Under the pieces are notes generated by a model. It was not told where the DNA came from. It worked only from the letters and a program-made list of their open reading frames with translations, and searched no databases. From Pseudoclavibacter sp. AY1F1 (GTDB lineage Bacteria > Actinomycetota > Actinomycetes > Actinomycetales > Microbacteriaceae), in the NCBI RefSeq assembly GCF_002931075.1, contig NZ_PSTQ01000007.1:62001-126000 (forward strand): a stretch of 64,000 bases of DNA, read 5' to 3'. Of the stretch, positions 13,969 to 21,483 are shown one piece after another (position 1 is the first letter of the stretch; each line of letters starts with the position of its first letter). A program made the translations under genes and the position numbers.

Positions 13969-14535
13969 TCAGGCGACGACGAAAGCGAACGAGATGCAGC
14001 CCACGACAACTGCCGCTGAGAGCAGGAGCGCGATGATCCAGCCGCGGTGGCGACGCGCGAGCACCGCGAGCAGCACGGAGACCGCGCCGATGCTCGCCCC
14101 GAGGTAGAGGGGCCAAAACGGAGACGGACTGGTCGCGGCTGACAGCACGATGGCGAGCAGGGCGGCGGTGAGAGAAAGGAGCACCGAGACGACAAGGGCC
14201 ACGCGGCTGAGGCCGAGGCCTGTTGTCTCGCCTGTGGAGGTGGAGCGGGCGGATGCGGTTGGGCGGACGGATGCGGGAGCCGTGGCGGTCGCCTGGACGT
14301 GCGCAACCGCGGGGTCGGCCTCGGCTTCGCCGAGCGCCGACTCCGACGGCACCGCGACTGCTCTCCCCTCGGCCGGAGTCTCGGCCGTCTTCTCGGCCGG
14401 GCTGTCGGCCGCATGCTGGCGTGGGGTGAGCGCGGAGTATGCGGCGTTGCTGGTGTCGTCGACCGGAGTGCGGTCGATGGGCGGCAGCTCTACCGGCTTC
14501 CGCGGCGGCAGCTTCGGCTGTTCTGGCATGGTCAT
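13969..14535 (-). CDS. Small membrane protein of unknown function
   Basis: A 188-residue protein with a polar, disordered N-terminal half rich in A/E/P/T (1-105) and three hydrophobic segments (about 109-130, 138-156 and 165-186). No family was recognised. Its start ATG overlaps the TGA of the rimI-tsaD gene by four bases (ATGA), so it is translationally coupled to the t6A genes, although nothing in it suggests a tRNA-related job. It closes the operon. Confidence 0.75.
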
Positions 14536-16112
14536 GCGTGCTCCCCCATGGATGTTGTCCCCGCTGACACGTGCGGTGTCGCCACCGGCAAAGTGGAGTC
14601 TGCCGCGAAATCGAGAGGCGCCTGCGGCTTGCCGGCAGCGACCAGCATCGCCCCGACCGCGGCGATCATCGCCCCGTTGTCCGTGCAGAGTCGGAGCGGC
14701 GGGATGCGGAGCTCAATTCCGGCGGCGGCGCAGCGCTCCTCCGCCAGTTCGCGCACGCGGGCGTTGGCCGCCACTCCTCCACCGAGCACAAGCCGAGGAA
14801 CTCCGAGCGCGGTACAGGCCGCGACGGCCTTCGCCGTGAGCACGTCGGCGACGGCCTCGCGGAAGCTCGCGGCCACGTCCGCCACCGGCACCGGCTCCCC
14901 TGCGTCCTCCTTCGCCTCGACCCACCTGGCGACGGCCGTCTTCAGACCGGAAAACGAGAAGTCGTAACGATGCTTCTCGAGGTCTTTCGGCTTCGTGAGG
15001 CCGCGCGGAAACCGGATGGCCTTCGGGTCGCCGCCCGCGGCCGCCTTGTCGATCTCCGGCCCGCCCGGGTAAGGCAGGCGCAGGAGGCGGGCCACCTTGT
15101 CGAACGCCTCACCGGCAGCGTCGTCGATCGTCTCGCCGAGCAGTGCCACGTCGTCGACGAGGTCCCGAACGTGCAGCAGCGACGTGTGACCGCCCGAGAC
15201 GAGCAGCGCAACAGCTGGAAGTTCGAGCTGCCCGACGTCGTCGCGCAGCACATCCGCCGCCACGTGCCCGACAAGGTGATTGACGGCGTAGAGCGGGATG
15301 CCCGTGGCGACGTGCAGGGCCTTGGCCGCGGCAGTCCCGACCATGAGCGCGCCGGCAAGACCCGGCCCTTGCGTGACGGCGATCGCGTCGAGCTCGTCGA
15401 GCCTGACACCCGCCGTCTTGAGCGCCGCCTCGATGGTGGGCACGATGGCGTCAGCGTGCGCGCGCGCGGCGATCTCAGGCACCACACCGCCGAATATGGC
15501 GTGCTCGTCCATGGACGAGGCAACCTCGTTGGCGAGCAGCTCACGGCCGCGGACGATGCCGACGCCGGTTTCGTCGCACGACGATTCGATGCCGAGCACA
15601 AGCGGCGCATTCAGGGCGCCGCCCGAGGCCCGAGCCTCGGCGGAGATCCGGACCCCCGGCAGCCTGCCGCGCATCACGATCGCATCCACTCCCTCTCTTG
15701 GGTAGTACTTGGGCCGGCGCCCGATGTCCTCGAAGCCGAGCCCAGAGTAGAGCGCGCGTGCGGCGTCGCCGTTCTCGCGCACCTCGAGGAACACCTGCTT
15801 CGCGCCGCGTGCCTCGGCCCAGGCGAACAGCTCCGCGAGCATCCGAGTGGCCCAGCCGCCGCGCCGCAGACGCTCGTCGACGGCGATCGTCTGCACGTCG
15901 GCCTCGCCACCGCCCTGGAGCGCCATGACACCGGCGGCTGCGAGGATCTCGCCCGTCGAGGTGTCTTCGACGACGACGTATCGGGTGTGCTGGCTCTTGA
16001 CCTCGCCGGCAAGCATGGATGGCGACCAGGGGTCGAGCGGGAAGGCGGCCTCGTCGAGTCGGACCATCGAGGGGATGTCGGCGTCAACCGCATCCCGCAG
16101 AGCGACGCGCAT
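14532..16112 (-). CDS. tsaD: Fused RimI acetyltransferase / TsaD t6A synthase subunit
   Basis: A 526-residue bifunctional protein. Residues 1-150 form a GNAT fold of the RimI type, which acetylates the N-terminal alanine of ribosomal protein S18, with the acetyl-CoA loop RRGGWATRM (about 83-91). After a short linker, residues 171-526 are TsaD, which transfers threonylcarbamoyl to A37 of ANN-decoding tRNAs. TsaD landmarks are [12 protein letters not shown], metal-binding histidines in AARAHAD and VNHLVGH, and LVSGGHTSL. The ATG shares one base with the tsaB stop (TGATG); a TTG one codon earlier is the alternative. Fusion of these two neighbouring functions is known in some actinobacteria but not universal. 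Confidence 0.95.
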
Positions 16113-16720
16113 CAACCCGTCACCCGCTTGGGGCCGTTGGATGGCACGGCGTCAGCGCCGCGCAGGTAGATGATCGAGTTCGCCTCTGCATCGAGCCCGT
16201 GCACCTCACGGTCGAGCCAGGCGAGCGCTAGGTGGGCGGCCGAGATCGTCCGCGTGTCGAAGACATTGGCAGCATCCGGAACGTCGTCCGGCTTGTGCAG
16301 CTCGCACGAGCTCGCGACCAGCAGCCCCTCTTCGTAGCGTGAGCAGGCGAGTTCCCCGCGCCGGGCGTCGGTCGTCACGAGCAGATCCCCGCCCACCTCC
16401 GGATGCGCGGCACGCCATTCGTGGGCGGCCGCGTCATGGCTGGGCATCGGAATGAAACGCACGCCGCGCGCGAACGCGAAAGTCCGTGCCGCCGCGACGC
16501 CCACGCGGAGGCCGGTGAACGGCCCGGGACCCATGCCGCCGACAACCTGAGTGACGTGCTGGGGCGAGAGCCCGGCATCCGCGAGCACCTCCGAGATGGC
16601 GACGCCGACAGCCTCTGCGTGGTGTCTGGTGTCTGCGCTGCGCCGTTCGGCGAGTACGCGGCCATGCGGGGTGACGATCGCGACATCCGTGCCCGCTGAC
16701 GTATCGATCGCTAAGAGCAT
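16112..16720 (-). CDS. tsaB: TsaB, t6A synthesis partner of TsaD
   Basis: A 202-residue inactive homologue of TsaD (ASKHA fold) that forms the TsaB-TsaD-TsaE complex for t6A37 tRNA modification. It begins [10 protein letters not shown] and carries the [14 protein letters not shown] motif near residue 65-78 characteristic of TsaB. The ATG at 16720 was chosen; an upstream extension to 16768 is not family-like. A TAGAAT box overlapping the tsaE stop lies 7 nt before this ATG, so a leaderless internal promoter is possible in addition to readthrough from tsaE. Confidence 0.95.
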
Positions 16721-16727
16721 GTGACCG

Positions 16728-16733
16728 ATTCTA
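16728..16733 (-). promoter_or_regulatory. Leaderless -10 box for tsaB
   Basis: TAGAAT, whose TAG is also the tsaE stop codon, ends 7 nt before the tsaB ATG; no ribosome site lies between. Confidence 0.5.
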
Positions 16734-17330
16734 CGCGGGCGAGGCGCCGAACTCGGCCCGCAGCGCACGGCCGAGCGACGCCTCGAGGGGCCGGTTGAAC
16801 ACGCCGGTTGTTGTGAGCGTCAGGCGACGGGGGTCGACCGGCTCGTCGTCGTGCTCGTGGTCGTGGTCGTGGTCAGAGTTCTGGTCATGGTCATCTCGCT
16901 CGGTGCCGCCGGCGGGTGCAGACAGCGCCGTCGAGCGCTCGATCGTGACCTCGAGCCAGCGATCGGTGATGAGCGGAACAGCCTCGCTCCCCCACTCCAC
17001 CACGGTCACGCTCGCAGCGAGGTCCAGGCCGAGGTCATCGAGCTCCGCGGGGTCTCCGAGACGGTAGGCGTCGACGTGGATGAGCTCAGGACCGCCGACC
17101 AGCGACGGATGCGTACGGGCCAGCACGAACGTGGGACTCGTGACCGGGCCCCTCACTCCAAGAGCCCTACCGAGCCCGCGTGCGAACGTGGTCTTGCCCG
17201 CTCCGAGCGGTCCCGTCAGCACGAGGACGTCGCCGGCAGCGAGCTGCGCGCCGATGAGCTCACCTGCCCGCACCATGTCCTCGGCTGTCGCGAGCTCGAC
17301 GGAGATTCCAGGCGTCACGTTGTCACCCAT
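16731..17330 (-). CDS. tsaE: TsaE ATPase of t6A synthesis, with His/Asp-rich insert
   Basis: A P-loop protein that drives the TsaBDE cycle. The Walker A LTGPLGAGKTTFARG (about 39-53), TSPTFVL and the HVDAYRL region are standard. At 199 residues it is longer than the usual ~150 because residues about 144-163 form a histidine/aspartate-rich insert (including DHDHDHEHDD) before the terminal RRLTLTTTG strand. The insert is encoded by a GTGGTC-type hexamer repeat that can change length without frameshift. The start ATG at 17330 has GAGAGGCG upstream; the gene follows alr by 13 bp. Confidence 0.92.
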   Translation of the reverse strand: MGDNVTPGISVELATAEDMVRAGELIGAQLAAGDVLVLTGPLGAGKTTFARGLGRALGVRGPVTSPTFVLARTHPSLVGGPELIHVDAYRLGDPAELDDLGLDLAASVTVVEWGSEAVPLITDRWLEVTIERSTALSAPAGGTERDDHDQNSDHDHDHEHDDEPVDPRRLTLTTTGVFNRPLEASLGRALRAEFGASPA

Positions 17331-17343
17331 CTGAAACCGCCTC

Positions 17344-19209
17344 TCATTCCGCGTAGCGCTCTCGGCGCACGATACGTGGCCCGAACGCGGCGACAAACGC
17401 CTGCGGTTCCAGACCAGACCACGAGGCCCATTCGCGCAGGTGGATGTCACGTGGTTCCGAGCCGAAGACCGAGACCGGCATGCCGATCCAGGCCTCCTGG
17501 TCCTGAAGGTCGACGATCACCTGATCCATCGCGACACGCCCGATGATGGGTCTCCGCTCGCCCCCGACGACCACTTCGCCTCGGCCTGCCACCCTGCGCG
17601 GAATCGCGTCGGCGTACCCGAGCGGAACGAGTCCGAGTGTGGTGGGCTCTTCGGCGATCCAGTCGTAGCCGTAGGAGACCCCGTGACCCGCCGTCACCCG
17701 CTTGACGTGCACGAGTTCGCTCATGAGAGAGACCGAGACTTGCGCATTCGGGTCGTGGAAGCCGTACACCGCACGGGTCGCTGAGTCGCTGGTTCGTTCG
17801 TGGTCGACAAGCGTGCTGGCGCGGGCAGCTCCGCCCACGTAGTCCAGGTCGGCCTGTGTGGCGACAAGCGGGAGCAGCCCGTACTCGAGCGCTAGGTCCG
17901 CCATGAGCCTGGCACCGTGGCCGTAGGCGTCCGCCGAGACGTCGACGCTGAAGGTCCTGGCCGCGTGCCTGGCACCCATCCCGGTGGCGAGCGCACCGGA
18001 GAGCTCACGAGCTCGCTCCCCCATCCGGGTGCGCAGCAGCTCCACGTCGACGGTCAGCTCACGGCGTGGAGCGAGCGCGCCGCCGTCACTCCGCGCTTGC
18101 TCGTGTGACACCCCCGCCGATGCCGCCGCGCCGACGCGAGAGTAGTGACGAGGAATGCGCGTGCTGAGCCGCGTGACAACTTCGTAGTTGATGGTCCCTG
18201 CCGCCGCCGCCCACGCGTCGGCGCTCGCTGAACGGGCGGCGTCGATAACCTGCAGGCGGGGCTGATCGTCGCACTGCTCGAGGCGTGATGACGCGGCGAT
18301 GGCACCCTCGAGCGGCTCGATTCGCAGCTCAAGGGCGTCGACTGACACCACGCGCCACCCGGCCCCGGTGTCGTCGGTGAGCTCGAGGGAACCCGCAGGA
18401 ACCGGCGGCAGCCCGACGGCCTGGCCGACATCGACGCGGAACCCGCGTTGGTCCTCGCAGATCGGCGCGCTCAGCGAGAGCGCCGGATGCAGCGCCACAG
18501 GGCACTCGGTGCCTGCCGAGAACGGGGAGAGCCCATAGAGGGAGACCCCGAGCCGCACGAGGTCGAAGCGCGACCCGGGCAGCGACATCGATCCGGCCGT
18601 CGCGGCGAGGTGGCGGACGGAAGGACTCAGACCGCAGCGATCCGCGAGCTCGAGCGCACGCTCGAAAGACGTGAGCTGCGCGAGGTCCGCCTCGGCTCCC
18701 GCACCGGCGAGGTGGCTGAACAGCCCCTCCAGGCGGATGAGGCCACGAGCCTCGAGCTCCGCCGCCTTCGTGAAGGCCGATTCCCACTCGATCGCGCTGA
18801 TGCCGTTTCGTCCGAGCCCAGTGTCGAGCTTGAGATGCACAACCACCGAACGTTCCGAGTGTTCCAGCCGTCCCAAGCCGATATCAAGGAGCTCGAGTTG
18901 CGCGAGCGACGAGATGCCCAGCTCGACGTCAGCGTCGAGAGCGGCGAGCCAGCCCGTGCGCGCGCCGTGCATCCAGGTCAGGATCGGAGCGGTGAAACCA
19001 TCCGCTCGGAGCGCTAGCGCCTCACGGAGGTCGACCACACCGAGACGTTCGGCTCCGCCCTCGAGCGCGGCCCTCGCCACCTCGCTGGCACCGTGCCCGT
19101 ACGCGTTCGCCTTGACAACCGCGAGGAGCGGTGTGCCGGTGAGGTCGGCAACGGCCCGCACGTTGGCACGGACGGCGTCGAGGTCGACGTCGATGCGCGG
19201 ACCGCTCAC
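17344..19209 (-). CDS. alr: Double-length alanine racemase with complementary half-sites
   Basis: PLP enzyme making D-alanine for peptidoglycan. At 621 residues it is about 250 longer than usual. Module 1 (1-358) has the PLP lysine K33 in [10 protein letters not shown], plus R134, H166, R219 and the C-terminal INYE (Y342), but lacks GVSYG; where MDQ is expected there is VDA. Module 2 (about 384-621) has a barrel cut to roughly 100 residues with VSADAYGHG (lysine replaced by S425). It retains GVSYG (Y513) and M561-D562-Q563 and lacks INYE. In known racemases the lysine and that tyrosine come from opposite subunits, so the chain appears to hold one complete site. The frame is intact and its ATG overlaps the acpS stop by four bases. 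Confidence 0.93.
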
Positions 19210-19580
19210 GCGAGTGCTCCGGCTGGAGCGGCACGCTCGGCGATCACAAACGCCGTCGCCGTCGTGCGCTCGTGAGTCAACGAGAGATGCAGGTGGTCGA
19301 CTCCGACCGACGCCAGGTGCAACCGAAGCGCAGGCGAAAGCGCGAACTCCGGCCGCCCCGCAGGGCCACTCTCGACCTCGAAGTCGAGAAAGCTGAGCGA
19401 CCCAATGCCGCCCAGCGCCTTCACTGCCGCCTCGCGCGCCGCGAAACGTGCGCCGAGAGACGCAAGCGATCGCTCGCGCTCGGCCGGTGTGAAGAGGCGT
19501 TCGCGAAGGCGAGGTGCCCTCTGCAGAGCCCGCGCGAATCGCGCGAGCTCCACAGTGTCGACTCCGATCCCGACGATCAC
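19206..19580 (-). CDS. acpS: Holo-acyl-carrier-protein synthase
   Basis: Transfers the 4'-phosphopantetheine arm of CoA to acyl carrier protein. The 124-residue protein has the family motifs [12 protein letters not shown] (about 4-15), with the metal-binding aspartate, and [13 protein letters not shown] (about 45-57), with the metal-binding glutamate. The [16 protein letters not shown] strand follows. Length is typical. The start is GTG at 19580, 6 bp after the glmS stop; its TGA overlaps the alr start. With coaA divergent just beyond glmS, CoA supply and use lie close together. Confidence 0.95.
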
Positions 19581-19586
19581 GCTCTG

Positions 19587-21437
19587 CTACTCGACGGTGA
19601 CGGACTTCGCCAGGTTGCGCGGCTGGTCCACGTCGAGACCCTTCGCCGTCGCAAGCTCGATCGCGAAGATCTGCAACGGCACGACTGCCAAGAGCGGCTC
19701 GAAGAAAGGCTCGGTCGGTGGGACCGCGATGACCTCATCCGCATACGGCAGAACCGCGGCGTCGCCGACCTCGCAGATCGCGAGCACGCGGGCCCCGCGG
19801 GCACGGATCTCCTGGATGTTCGAGACGATCTTCGGGTGCAGGGTGTCGTCGTGGCGAGGGCTCGGCACGATGACGAAGACCGGCTGGCCCGGCTCGATGA
19901 GTGCGATCGGACCGTGCTTCAGCTCGCCGGCCGCGAACCCCTCGGCGTGGATGTACGCGATCTCCTTGAGCTTGAGCGCGCCCTCGAGCGCGATCGGGTA
20001 GCCGACGTTTCGACCCAGGTAGAGCACAGAACGGGTGTCAGCCATCCAGTTCGCGAGCTCATGGATGCGCTCGCGAACGCCGAGCACGGTGCGCACCTTC
20101 TCCGGGATCGTCTGGAACTCCGTCAGGAGCTCCTCGCGACGCTCGTCGGTCATCGTTCCGCGCACCGTCGCCGTGTAGATGCCGAGCAGGTAGAGCGCCG
20201 TGATCTGAGCGAGGAACGCCTTCGTCGATGCGACGGCGACCTCTGGGCCTGCGTGCGTGTAGACAACCGCATCGGACTCACGTGGGATGGTCGCACCCTG
20301 CGTGTTGCAGATCGAGAGCGTCTTCGCGCCGCGCGACATGGCGTAGCGGACCGCCATGAGCGTATCCATCGTCTCGCCCGACTGGCTCATCGAGACGATG
20401 AGCGTGCGCGAATCGAGGACCGGGTCACGGTAGCGGAACTCGTGCGCCAGCTCGACCTGCACGGGCACTCGTGCCCACTTCTCCATGGCGTACGCGCCGA
20501 CCTGCGCAGAGTATGCGGCCGTTCCGCAGGCGACGATGATGATGCGGTGGATGTCGTTGAAGAAGTCATCCCCGAGCGAGTCAAGGTCTGGCAGGTGCAC
20601 ACGGCCCTCGACGATGCGCCCGCGGAGCGTGTTGGCCACTGCCTCCGGGTCCTCGTCGATCTCCTTGGCCATGAAGCTCGGCCATCCGCCCTTCTCGGCA
20701 GCAGACGCATCCCAGGACACCTCGAATGCCTCGGCGGTCGCAGGCTCTCCGTCGAACGTCGTGATCTCGACCGAATCGGGGCGCACGAGCACGATCTGCT
20801 CCTGCCCGACGGCCAGCGCGCGAGGCGTGTACTCGACAAACGCGGCGACGTCAGAGCCCAGGAAGTTCTCACCGTCGCCGAGGCCAATGACGAGCGGCGA
20901 GTTGAGACGCGCGCCGACGACAAGACCGGGCTCATTTGCATGCACCGCAATCAGCGTGAAGGCGCCATCGAGGCGGCGCACCACCGCGCGGAATGCCTGC
21001 TCCAGGCTGCCGAGCTCCCGGTAGACGTGGCCGATCATGACGGCCGCGACTTCCGTGTCGGTCTCCGAATGGAACGTGTAGCCCAGCTCGACCAGCTCGG
21101 CCTTCAGCTCGGCGAAGTTCTCGATGATGCCGTTGTGGATGACGGCGAGCTTGCCTTCGTCGGCGAGGTGCGGGTGCGCATTCGCGTCGGTGGGGCCGCC
21201 GTGCGTCGCCCACCTCGTGTGACCGATGCCCGTGTGACCGTCCGGCAGCGGGTGGCGCTCCAGATCTTCGCGCAGCACCTTCAGCTTGCCCGCGCGCTTG
21301 CGGGTCTCGATCCGACCTTCGTCGTCGATGACCGCGACACCAGCGGAGTCGTACCCCCGGTACTCAAGTCTTGCGAGACCGCCCATCAGGATGTCGAGGC
21401 TCTCTCGTGGACCAACGTAACCAACAATTCCGCACAT
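19587..21437 (-). CDS. glmS: Glutamine-fructose-6-phosphate aminotransferase (isomerising)
   Basis: Makes glucosamine-6-phosphate, the entry to UDP-GlcNAc and peptidoglycan. The 616-residue protein starts [10 protein letters not shown] with the Ntn nucleophile Cys2, followed by the glutaminase domain (1-~240) and two SIS sugar-isomerase domains (~290-430 and ~460-600), ending [11 protein letters not shown]. The ATG at 21437 is fixed by the need for Cys2. A TAAGAT box 7 nt upstream and no ribosome site indicate a leaderless mRNA. No glmS ribozyme is present in the 60-bp gap to coaA. It heads the acpS-alr-tsaE-tsaB-tsaD run; glmM lies at 26.6 kb. Confidence 0.97.
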
Positions 21438-21444
21438 ACCGGCC

Positions 21445-21450
21445 ATCTTA
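21445..21450 (-). promoter_or_regulatory. Leaderless -10 box for glmS
   Basis: TAAGAT ends 7 nt before the glmS ATG; only GGCCGGT lies between. Confidence 0.55.
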
Positions 21451-21483
21451 GGGGCACGGCTCATGCCAGGCCGGACACCGCAC

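Follow-up and report, generated by a model that had tools for sequence, protein, structure and literature searches.

A fused alanine racemase gene of Pseudoclavibacter with complementary catalytic residues in its two modules

The alr gene and the division of its catalytic residues

The window, the whole stretch of 64,000 nucleotides that was analysed, lies in a genome of 4,096,156 bases (G000) from Pseudoclavibacter sp. AY1F1. Its minus strand carries, in this order, glmS, acpS, alr, tsaE and tsaB, followed by a frame with acetyltransferase and TsaD domains. The alr gene starts with GTG, ends with TGA and encodes a protein of 621 amino acids in which two alanine racemase (Alr) modules follow one another; the closest named relative by this protein is P. 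helvolus (89% identity). The features are as follows, in positions of the window.

17344..19209, minus strand: fused alanine racemase gene, whole feature (ORF and Pfam; orthologues L007-L010 and ten genus genomes)
18139..19209, minus strand: module 1, residues 1-357, a full PLP barrel and a C-terminal domain without Y265 and M312 equivalents, the INYE helix last (Pfam, alignments, prediction)
18058..18138, minus strand: linker, residues ~358-384 (low pLDDT; dN/dS 0.30-0.82)
17347..18057, minus strand: module 2, residues 385-621, a lysine-free remnant barrel of ~110 residues, then a C-terminal domain with Y265, Y284, M312 and D313 equivalents (Pfam, alignments)
19111..19113, minus strand: K33, the PLP lysine, equal to K39 of Geobacillus/Bacillus stearothermophilus Alr (alignment and script re-reading)
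18808..18831, minus strand: K127 to R134, the K129 and R136 equivalents (alignment and script re-reading)
18712..18714, minus strand: H166 (alignment and script re-reading)
18553..18555, minus strand: R219, the pyridine-N arginine (alignment and script re-reading)
18184..18186, minus strand: Y342, the phosphate-side tyrosine, Y354 equivalent (residue tally and script re-reading)
17935..17937, minus strand: S425, at the PLP-lysine position of module 2 (alignment and script re-reading)
17671..17673, minus strand: Y513, the catalytic tyrosine, Y265 equivalent (alignment and script re-reading)
17614..17616, minus strand: Y532, Y284 equivalent (alignment and script re-reading)
17524..17529, minus strand: M561-D562, the M312′-D313′ equivalents (alignment and script re-reading)
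19206..19580, minus strand: acpS, upstream of alr, with a 4-base overlap (ORF and family search)
16731..17330, minus strand: tsaE, downstream of alr, its start read at 17330, 13 bases past the alr stop (ORF and family search)
19587..21464, minus strand: glmS, first in the conserved neighbourhood glmS-acpS-alr-tsaE-tsaB (ORF and family search)

The GNAT acetyltransferase and TsaD domains identified by Pfam share one 527-residue frame (14532-16115, minus strand). An Rfam scan of the window returned no family at gathering score.

Pfam finds one full Ala_racemase_N domain (residues 8-229) and two Ala_racemase_C stretches in the 621-residue protein, with PF01168 and PF00842 both above cut-off. Against TIGR00492 the protein scores 279.7 bits (cut-off 168), and against the broad-specificity racemase model (PRK13340; NF009879) 89.7 bits, below the cut-off of 434; Y342 is kept. 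Re-reading by script located K33, Y37, K127, R134, H166, R219 and Y342 in module 1, and Y513, Y532, M561 and D562 in module 2, where S425 replaces the PLP lysine within VSADAYGHG. This agrees with the sequence-only reading, which had described two Alr modules in the 621-codon gene, the first with the barrel-side residues K33, R134, H166, R219 and Y342, the second lysine-free but with Y513 and M561-D562 retained. Two of its details fared less well. The GVSYG tyrosine is indeed gone from module 1, though not through an altered residue, as the alignment lacks the whole stretch; and the VDA string (V290), taken as the counterpart of MDQ in module 1, has no confident alignment, its HMM placement varying among orthologues. 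In a multiple alignment with canonical Alr, the canonical barrel pairs with module 1 and the catalytic C-domain with module 2, so that the end of module 1, together with the start of module 2, appears as an insertion between them. K33, Y37, K127, R134, H166, R219, Y513, M561 and D562 are common to all 14 rows of this alignment.

Passages in PMC3245724, PMC3485190 and PMC4517790 assign the PLP lysine, Arg136, Arg219 and Tyr354 to one Alr subunit, have the other contribute Tyr265′, Tyr284′ and, from the MD pair, the methionine, and describe the dimer as required for activity. Known Alr structures are homodimers with two sites, according to a passage in PMC3245724. Compared with homodimeric Alr (fold type III; PF01168 and PF00842; TIGR00492; 1sft, 1xfc, 1vfh, 2dy3), the fused protein has all the catalytic residues, once each, exceeds the TIGR00492 cut-off and has a first module that is predicted as an Alr monomer fold. 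It differs in that its two halves lie on one chain, are unequal and hold the residues for one site; unlike two identical Alr subunits, neither module has both residue sets. Judged by its sequence, the fused protein is a variant of the long-known Alr family and not an ordinary member.

An AlphaFold2 model based on 14 rows has a mean pLDDT of 68.7 and a pTM of 0.69, with most of the remnant barrel of module 2 below 55; an earlier model, based on 15 rows, had values of 58.3 and 0.47. Viral contigs were searched for extra rows and gave one locus with the set A1 and 16 with A3, five of these entering the 14-row alignment (A4). The 14-row alignment joins the module 1 barrel to the module 2 C-domain, and a single chain was predicted. 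A Foldseek search with the earlier model mostly returned top matches that spread one Alr chain over ~610-635 columns, with r.m.s.d. values of ~18-22 Å. The top-ranked matches of the better model were Alr chains over 609-627 columns (r.m.s.d. 16.7-18.2 Å), and these alignments must therefore draw on parts of both modules as one chain. The better model also yielded alignments of ~365-370 columns to six Alr chains from M. tuberculosis and C. glutamicum (1xfc_B, 8ahw_B, 2dy3_A-D), with target TM values of 0.81-0.84 and r.m.s.d. values of 3.6-4.1 Å, and alignments of the same length to S. aureus and C. difficile Alr chains with target TM values of 0.72-0.77; as the Foldseek output gives no residue ranges, these were assigned to module 1 by their length. 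We read this as a prediction in which module 1, including its own C-domain, folds as a complete Alr monomer, the C-domain of module 2 lying elsewhere. In the model, the barrel and the C-domain of module 2 are not arranged like those of a single Alr chain (r.m.s.d. ~17 Å), and pLDDT is low between them. For the proposal that the two modules pack as a dimer, the prediction thus supports the Alr fold of module 1 and lends little to the placement of module 2.

Conservation of the fused type and a second, split system

Nine of the ten Pseudoclavibacter genomes in the collection carry the fused gene whole in one frame, and the tenth (G202) has its two halves at contig ends. Two of the carriers (G199, G204) are one-contig assemblies, so the join is due neither to chance nor to assembly. 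A search for further two-module Alr proteins gave matches in all ten genus genomes and in two other genera, g21 and g50, with the fused type in all three genomes fetched from each. In g50, TsaE is in the same frame as both racemase modules (L109-L111). In G077, from a further genus, the same partition is found at the acpS-tsaE locus (L136), where overlapping frames encode the two modules separately.

Of the 15 fused proteins that are whole, the other 14 are 44-89% identical to the one encoded in the window. First modules of the fused type keep K39, Y43, K129, R136, H166, R219 and Y354 in 17 of 17 cases, Y354 having been read by eye from the raw sequence in the two where the HMM alignment had a gap. 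Second modules keep Y265, Y284, M312 and D313, also in 17 of 17; their lysine position, readable in 14, holds S in 12, T in two and K in none, and the three g50 second modules have lost the lysine stretch. Values of dN/dS are 0.05-0.13 for the module 1 barrel and 0.03-0.12 for the module 2 C-domain, as against 0.19-0.33 for the module 1 C-domain, 0.17-0.31 for the module 2 barrel and 0.30-0.82 for the linker (Nei-Gojobori, ten pairs of five close orthologues, several with dS near or above 1). By these sequence comparisons, strong purifying selection is acting on both half-sites. Together with the intact frame in nine of ten genus genomes, this bears out the earlier view that the gene is not a pseudogene.

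Another contig of the window genome (L094, G000:C1:672000-679000) carries a split pair: a 232-residue lysine-free gene with LRADAYGHG, GVSYG and MDQ shares four bases with a 350-residue gene that keeps the PLP lysine and is without GVSYG and MDQ. We refer to the lysine-free part as SB and to the lysine part as SA (loci L087-L094, L112-L135, L157). SB-SA occurs in eight of the ten genus genomes, in G188 as one long frame, and in 24 of 48 genomes, one in each of 24 further genera; the 48 had been preselected for at least two matches or odd scores, and the fraction is not a frequency. The longest frames, on which overlaps were judged with start codons unread, overlap in 30 of 31 two-gene pairs, by exactly four bases in 11. 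K39, Y43, K129, R136, H166 and R219 are present in 32 of 32 SA, and Tyr265 and Met312 in 32 of 32 SB; the SYG string of one SA (L124) is located in the barrel. Over both systems, the lysine position is readable in 44 of the 49 lysine-free modules (loosely in L112 and L133) and is K in none; in SB it is R in 24 of the 30 readable. Because the pairs were picked by their truncated C-domain and not by the lysine, this result is independent of how they were chosen. The earlier claim that the losses follow the subunit line of known Alr structures holds in the 17 pairs of the fused type and in the 32 of this second, mostly two-gene type, without exception across the 49 module pairs. Some SB were considered as candidates differing from Alr by the lysine alone, and rejected: L121 and L127 match the whole Alr profile but are without K129 and H166.

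An SB profile search in 396 genomes of the order returned, among the matches listed, 13 that begin at profile position 12 or before. Twelve are from Microbacteriaceae; the remaining one (G216, L176) proved to be a canonical gene truncated at the start of its contig. Two further listed matches from other families (L177, L178) are canonical as well.

SB-SA resembles the fusion in its complementary loss along the same line, but is encoded by two genes (one frame in L088), has the lysine-free part first, mostly R rather than S in place of the lysine and an acidic residue at position 354, and often adjoins a GatD-like gene. Such a gene is within the fetched stretch at 23 of 32 SB-SA loci; the one tested matches GatD models best, with 113.2 bits against a cut-off of 450, and exceeds the cut-off of Pfam GATase_3. 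To our knowledge, type B peptidoglycan is found throughout Microbacteriaceae. Position 354 is D or E in 32 of 32 SA and in 10 of 10 rows of alr2, the second gene of the tandem alr1-alr2 pairs described below. According to a passage in PMC4517790, this position determines which substrate is used, and charged side chains at it reduced activity on alanine in one enzyme; the B2gamma peptidoglycan of Clavibacter contains diaminobutyrate, according to one in PMC5882085. It is a fair guess from these features, and no more than that, that SB-SA is a diamino-acid racemase. Lyr and Bar, described in part of PMC3485190 as having the Alr fold with Y354 replaced, resemble SA and alr2 in that replacement and differ from them as full-length homodimers with Thr or Ala, not an acidic residue, at 354. 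Another, full C-domain match accompanies the SB-SA pair in 23 of the 24 genomes, the 24th being G077. The small genome G015 (one contig of 927,303 bases) has no PF00842 match other than the SB of a split pair (L157, 224 and 386 amino acids), which argues that an SB-SA pair can also make D-Ala. The lysine-side protein of L157 reads KANANGHG, with N at the Y43 equivalent.

Source of D-Ala and the function of the fused protein

Outside the fused frame, no PF00842 match was found in eight genomes, two from Pseudoclavibacter and three from each of the two other genera with the fusion (G073, G204, G020, G100, G161, G049, G119, G174). One of them, G073, is 99% complete at 2.1 Mb, and its other N-domain matches are a 242-residue frame and a weak one under the cut-off; this PF01168 search covered the Pseudoclavibacter genomes. 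The 242-residue frame has the size of YggS. D-Ala-D-Ala ligase (Ddl) scores over cut-off in all ten genomes tested, the eight included, and a D-amino-acid transaminase in none of the same ten. Weak transaminase-model matches occur in nine of the ten, the best at 61.7 bits against a cut-off of 277.45 (none in G073), and this cut-off is reached in just one of 14 control genomes, so another transaminase may make D-Ala. Since there is no other PF00842 match, Ddl is present and no transaminase exceeds the cut-off, D-Ala in these eight genomes most likely comes from the fused protein. A second Ddl-like ligase scores 211.6-235.9 bits, under the cut-off of 245.65, in seven genomes (G000, G073, G204, G020, G100, G161, G077); none was seen in the three g50 genomes.

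The genome-wide search for a second alr that the sequence-only reading had proposed gave a divided answer, as none was found in the eight relatives but the window genome has two other systems, the L094 split pair and L003, a racemase of full length. The latter scores 203.6 bits against TIGR00492 (over 168) and is closest to PRK13340 (NF009879, 350.1 bits, under 434). With two further Alr-type systems in the window genome, the fused gene need not be the sole source of D-Ala there.

With considerable confidence we propose that the fused protein is the housekeeping alanine racemase of its lineage, acting as a single-chain asymmetric pseudodimer with one composite site. The observations behind this proposal are the partition of residues, its conservation, the selection on both halves, the eight genomes with no other PF00842 match and the separate-gene version in a relative. 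Module 1 would bind PLP via K33, which would also be the base for one face, and the C-terminal domain of module 2 would cover the module 1 barrel as the second subunit does in ordinary Alr. Y513 of module 2 would then serve as base on the opposite face and M561-D562 would form part of the pocket wall, and the second site of the ancestral homodimer would have been given up. Module 2 is without the lysine and most of the barrel, so that module 1 would need no GVSYG and MDQ of its own. What we infer is that the protein is an active racemase with a single site in each chain, that its modules pair in cis, and in what order the stages evolved.

The composite site might instead form in trans, with two fused chains pairing in such a way that each module 2 covers the module 1 of the other chain, giving a two-site homodimer of ~130 kDa. 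The linker is poorly conserved, and in G077 (L136) the modules are on separate chains and no linker is required; fusion in at least two lineages nevertheless makes the cis arrangement the simpler reading, and we consider trans pairing unlikely, though it deserves to be kept in mind. We give clearly less credit to the possibility that the protein racemizes an amino acid other than alanine, or is no longer catalytic, with D-Ala supplied by other enzymes. The window genome does hold the L094 split pair and the full-length L003, and nine of ten genomes show the weak transaminase-model matches. Against this, eight genomes have Ddl and no other PF00842 match, dN/dS is far below 1 in both catalytic stretches, and Y342 is kept in module 1, its counterpart being replaced in the split pair; passages in PMC3485190 and in PMC4517790 link Tyr354, to which Y342 corresponds, with alanine specificity.

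An exchange of parts between the two systems, module 1 working with SB or module 2 with SA, seems very improbable. Both co-occur in eight of ten genus genomes, yet the fused gene stands alone as the sole PF00842 match in eight genomes, the split pair is found with another full C-domain match and no fusion in 23 of 24 other genera (the other gene was fetched in 14 of the 23), and the acidic 354 in 32 of 32 SA suggests a different substrate. Large deletions in both modules would be expected of a decaying tandem duplication, be it a pseudogene or an artefact of annotation or assembly, but we find this scarcely credible for a gene present in ten genus genomes and two more genera at identities down to 44%, with the complementary pattern in 17 of 17 cases, dN/dS of 0.03-0.13 in the catalytic stretches and two one-contig assemblies.

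Alr is a standard case of an active site shared by identical subunits, and a passage of PMC3245724 describes its dimer interface as absolutely required for function and as a target for drugs. Titles and abstract openings among the matches listed for open PMC papers, a search that leaves subscription journals mostly uncovered, mention no fused or heterodimeric Alr, and within that range the earlier remark that no published description was known stands. The nearest working likeness is serine palmitoyltransferase SPT1/SPT2, a PLP enzyme with one lysine-less subunit. According to passages of PMC6148460, its sister families are homodimers, one subunit is without the PLP lysine, the pair presumably has one site and, in the cases given there, the genes are separate. 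Its fold is unrelated to that of Alr, with which it shares no homology. Should the pseudodimer reading be true, it would offer an Alr with one site whose two catalytic bases, both on one chain, could be changed separately, and racemase-like frames of ~230 and ~350 residues in Microbacteriaceae would likely be halves of a working enzyme. Serine palmitoyltransferase belongs to fold type I, and a viral single-chain form of it exists.

Evolutionary origin of the two systems

The acpS-tsaE locus contains a canonical alr, a full tandem alr1-alr2, a split pair (G077, L136) or the fusion. Canonical alr is found there in 15 of the 19 canonical loci fetched, and the tandem pair in all ten rows, Clavibacter counted once. 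The tandem genes (Clavibacter L011-L015; L097-L105, of which L102 is nearly identical to Clavibacter) thus share the locus of the fusion, and probably represent the ancestral arrangement. They differ from the fusion in that neither protein has lost K39, Y265 or M312 in any of the ten rows (L011, L097-L105), and alr2 differs from fused module 1 in its D or E at 354, again in 10 of 10.

In a barrel tree, built by a quick method with SH-aLRT as the sole support measure, the 42 rows of SA and alr2 make up a single group (99); another group, apart from it, unites 13 first modules of the fused type (93). The first gene of G077 falls outside that group of 13, with weak placement, and the g50 fusion lies elsewhere, next to a canonical row (88). 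Because the g50 first module is separate from the other fused first modules, fusion probably happened twice. A more careful C-domain tree comprised 68 of 88 rows and 101 columns, 20 long, divergent or near-identical rows, among them the three of g50, having been left out beforehand. It places fused module 2 on a long branch beside two alr1 rows and the second gene of G077 (L136) inside alr2 (99/99). In the C-domain trees, the SB rows lie among alr1 rows, in two groups.

AU tests were named after the first tree had been seen, with alr1 and alr2 defined without the rows of L101, L103 and L104. Fused module 2 with alr2 gave p = 0.118, with alr1 p = 0.051, and module 2 including L136 as a group alone p = 0.112, so that alr1 and alr2 both survive as parent of the Pseudoclavibacter module 2 (p 0.051 and 0.118). 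For SB, the values were 0.018 with alr1 and 0.053 with alr2. SB alone as one clade (p = 0.026) and SB plus fused module 2 as one clade of lysine-free modules (p = 0.0026) were both rejected.

On these trees, the simplest history would be that the members of a tandem pair lost complementary halves at each of two loci, the direction of loss at one locus being the reverse of that at the other. The most likely course towards the fused gene would run from a tandem alr pair at acpS-tsaE to two complementary genes and then to fusion. As a tentative wider scenario, about which we are somewhat more doubtful than convinced, Microbacteriaceae Alr may have gone more than once from a two-site homodimer to an asymmetric enzyme that is obligately one-site, in opposite directions at two loci. 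Of the pair at acpS-tsaE, it would be the first gene that kept the lysine side, and fusion would then have given a single chain in place of the ordinary enzyme. Of the pair at the other locus, which often adjoins a GatD-like gene, it would be the second, and the two genes would have stayed separate as a heterodimer. This heterodimer would racemize diamino acids and so provide type B peptidoglycan with its D-diamino acid; the exception would be the 0.93 Mb genome G015, where the pair, with the only PF00842 protein left, must make D-Ala. If the pseudodimer reading is right, nature ran the subunit-complementation experiment more than once and left surviving stages in the form of full tandem genes, truncated complementary pairs and fusions, and the passage from homodimer to heterodimer to single chain could be tested with real sequences.

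Three tandem pairs (L101, L103, L104) have an alr1 with C in place of the carbamylated K129 and N in place of D313, and an alr2 with T, N or G at 129 and E at 354; they are perhaps en route to complementary loss. In Clavibacter (L011-L015, L102), TsaE shares a frame with alr2.
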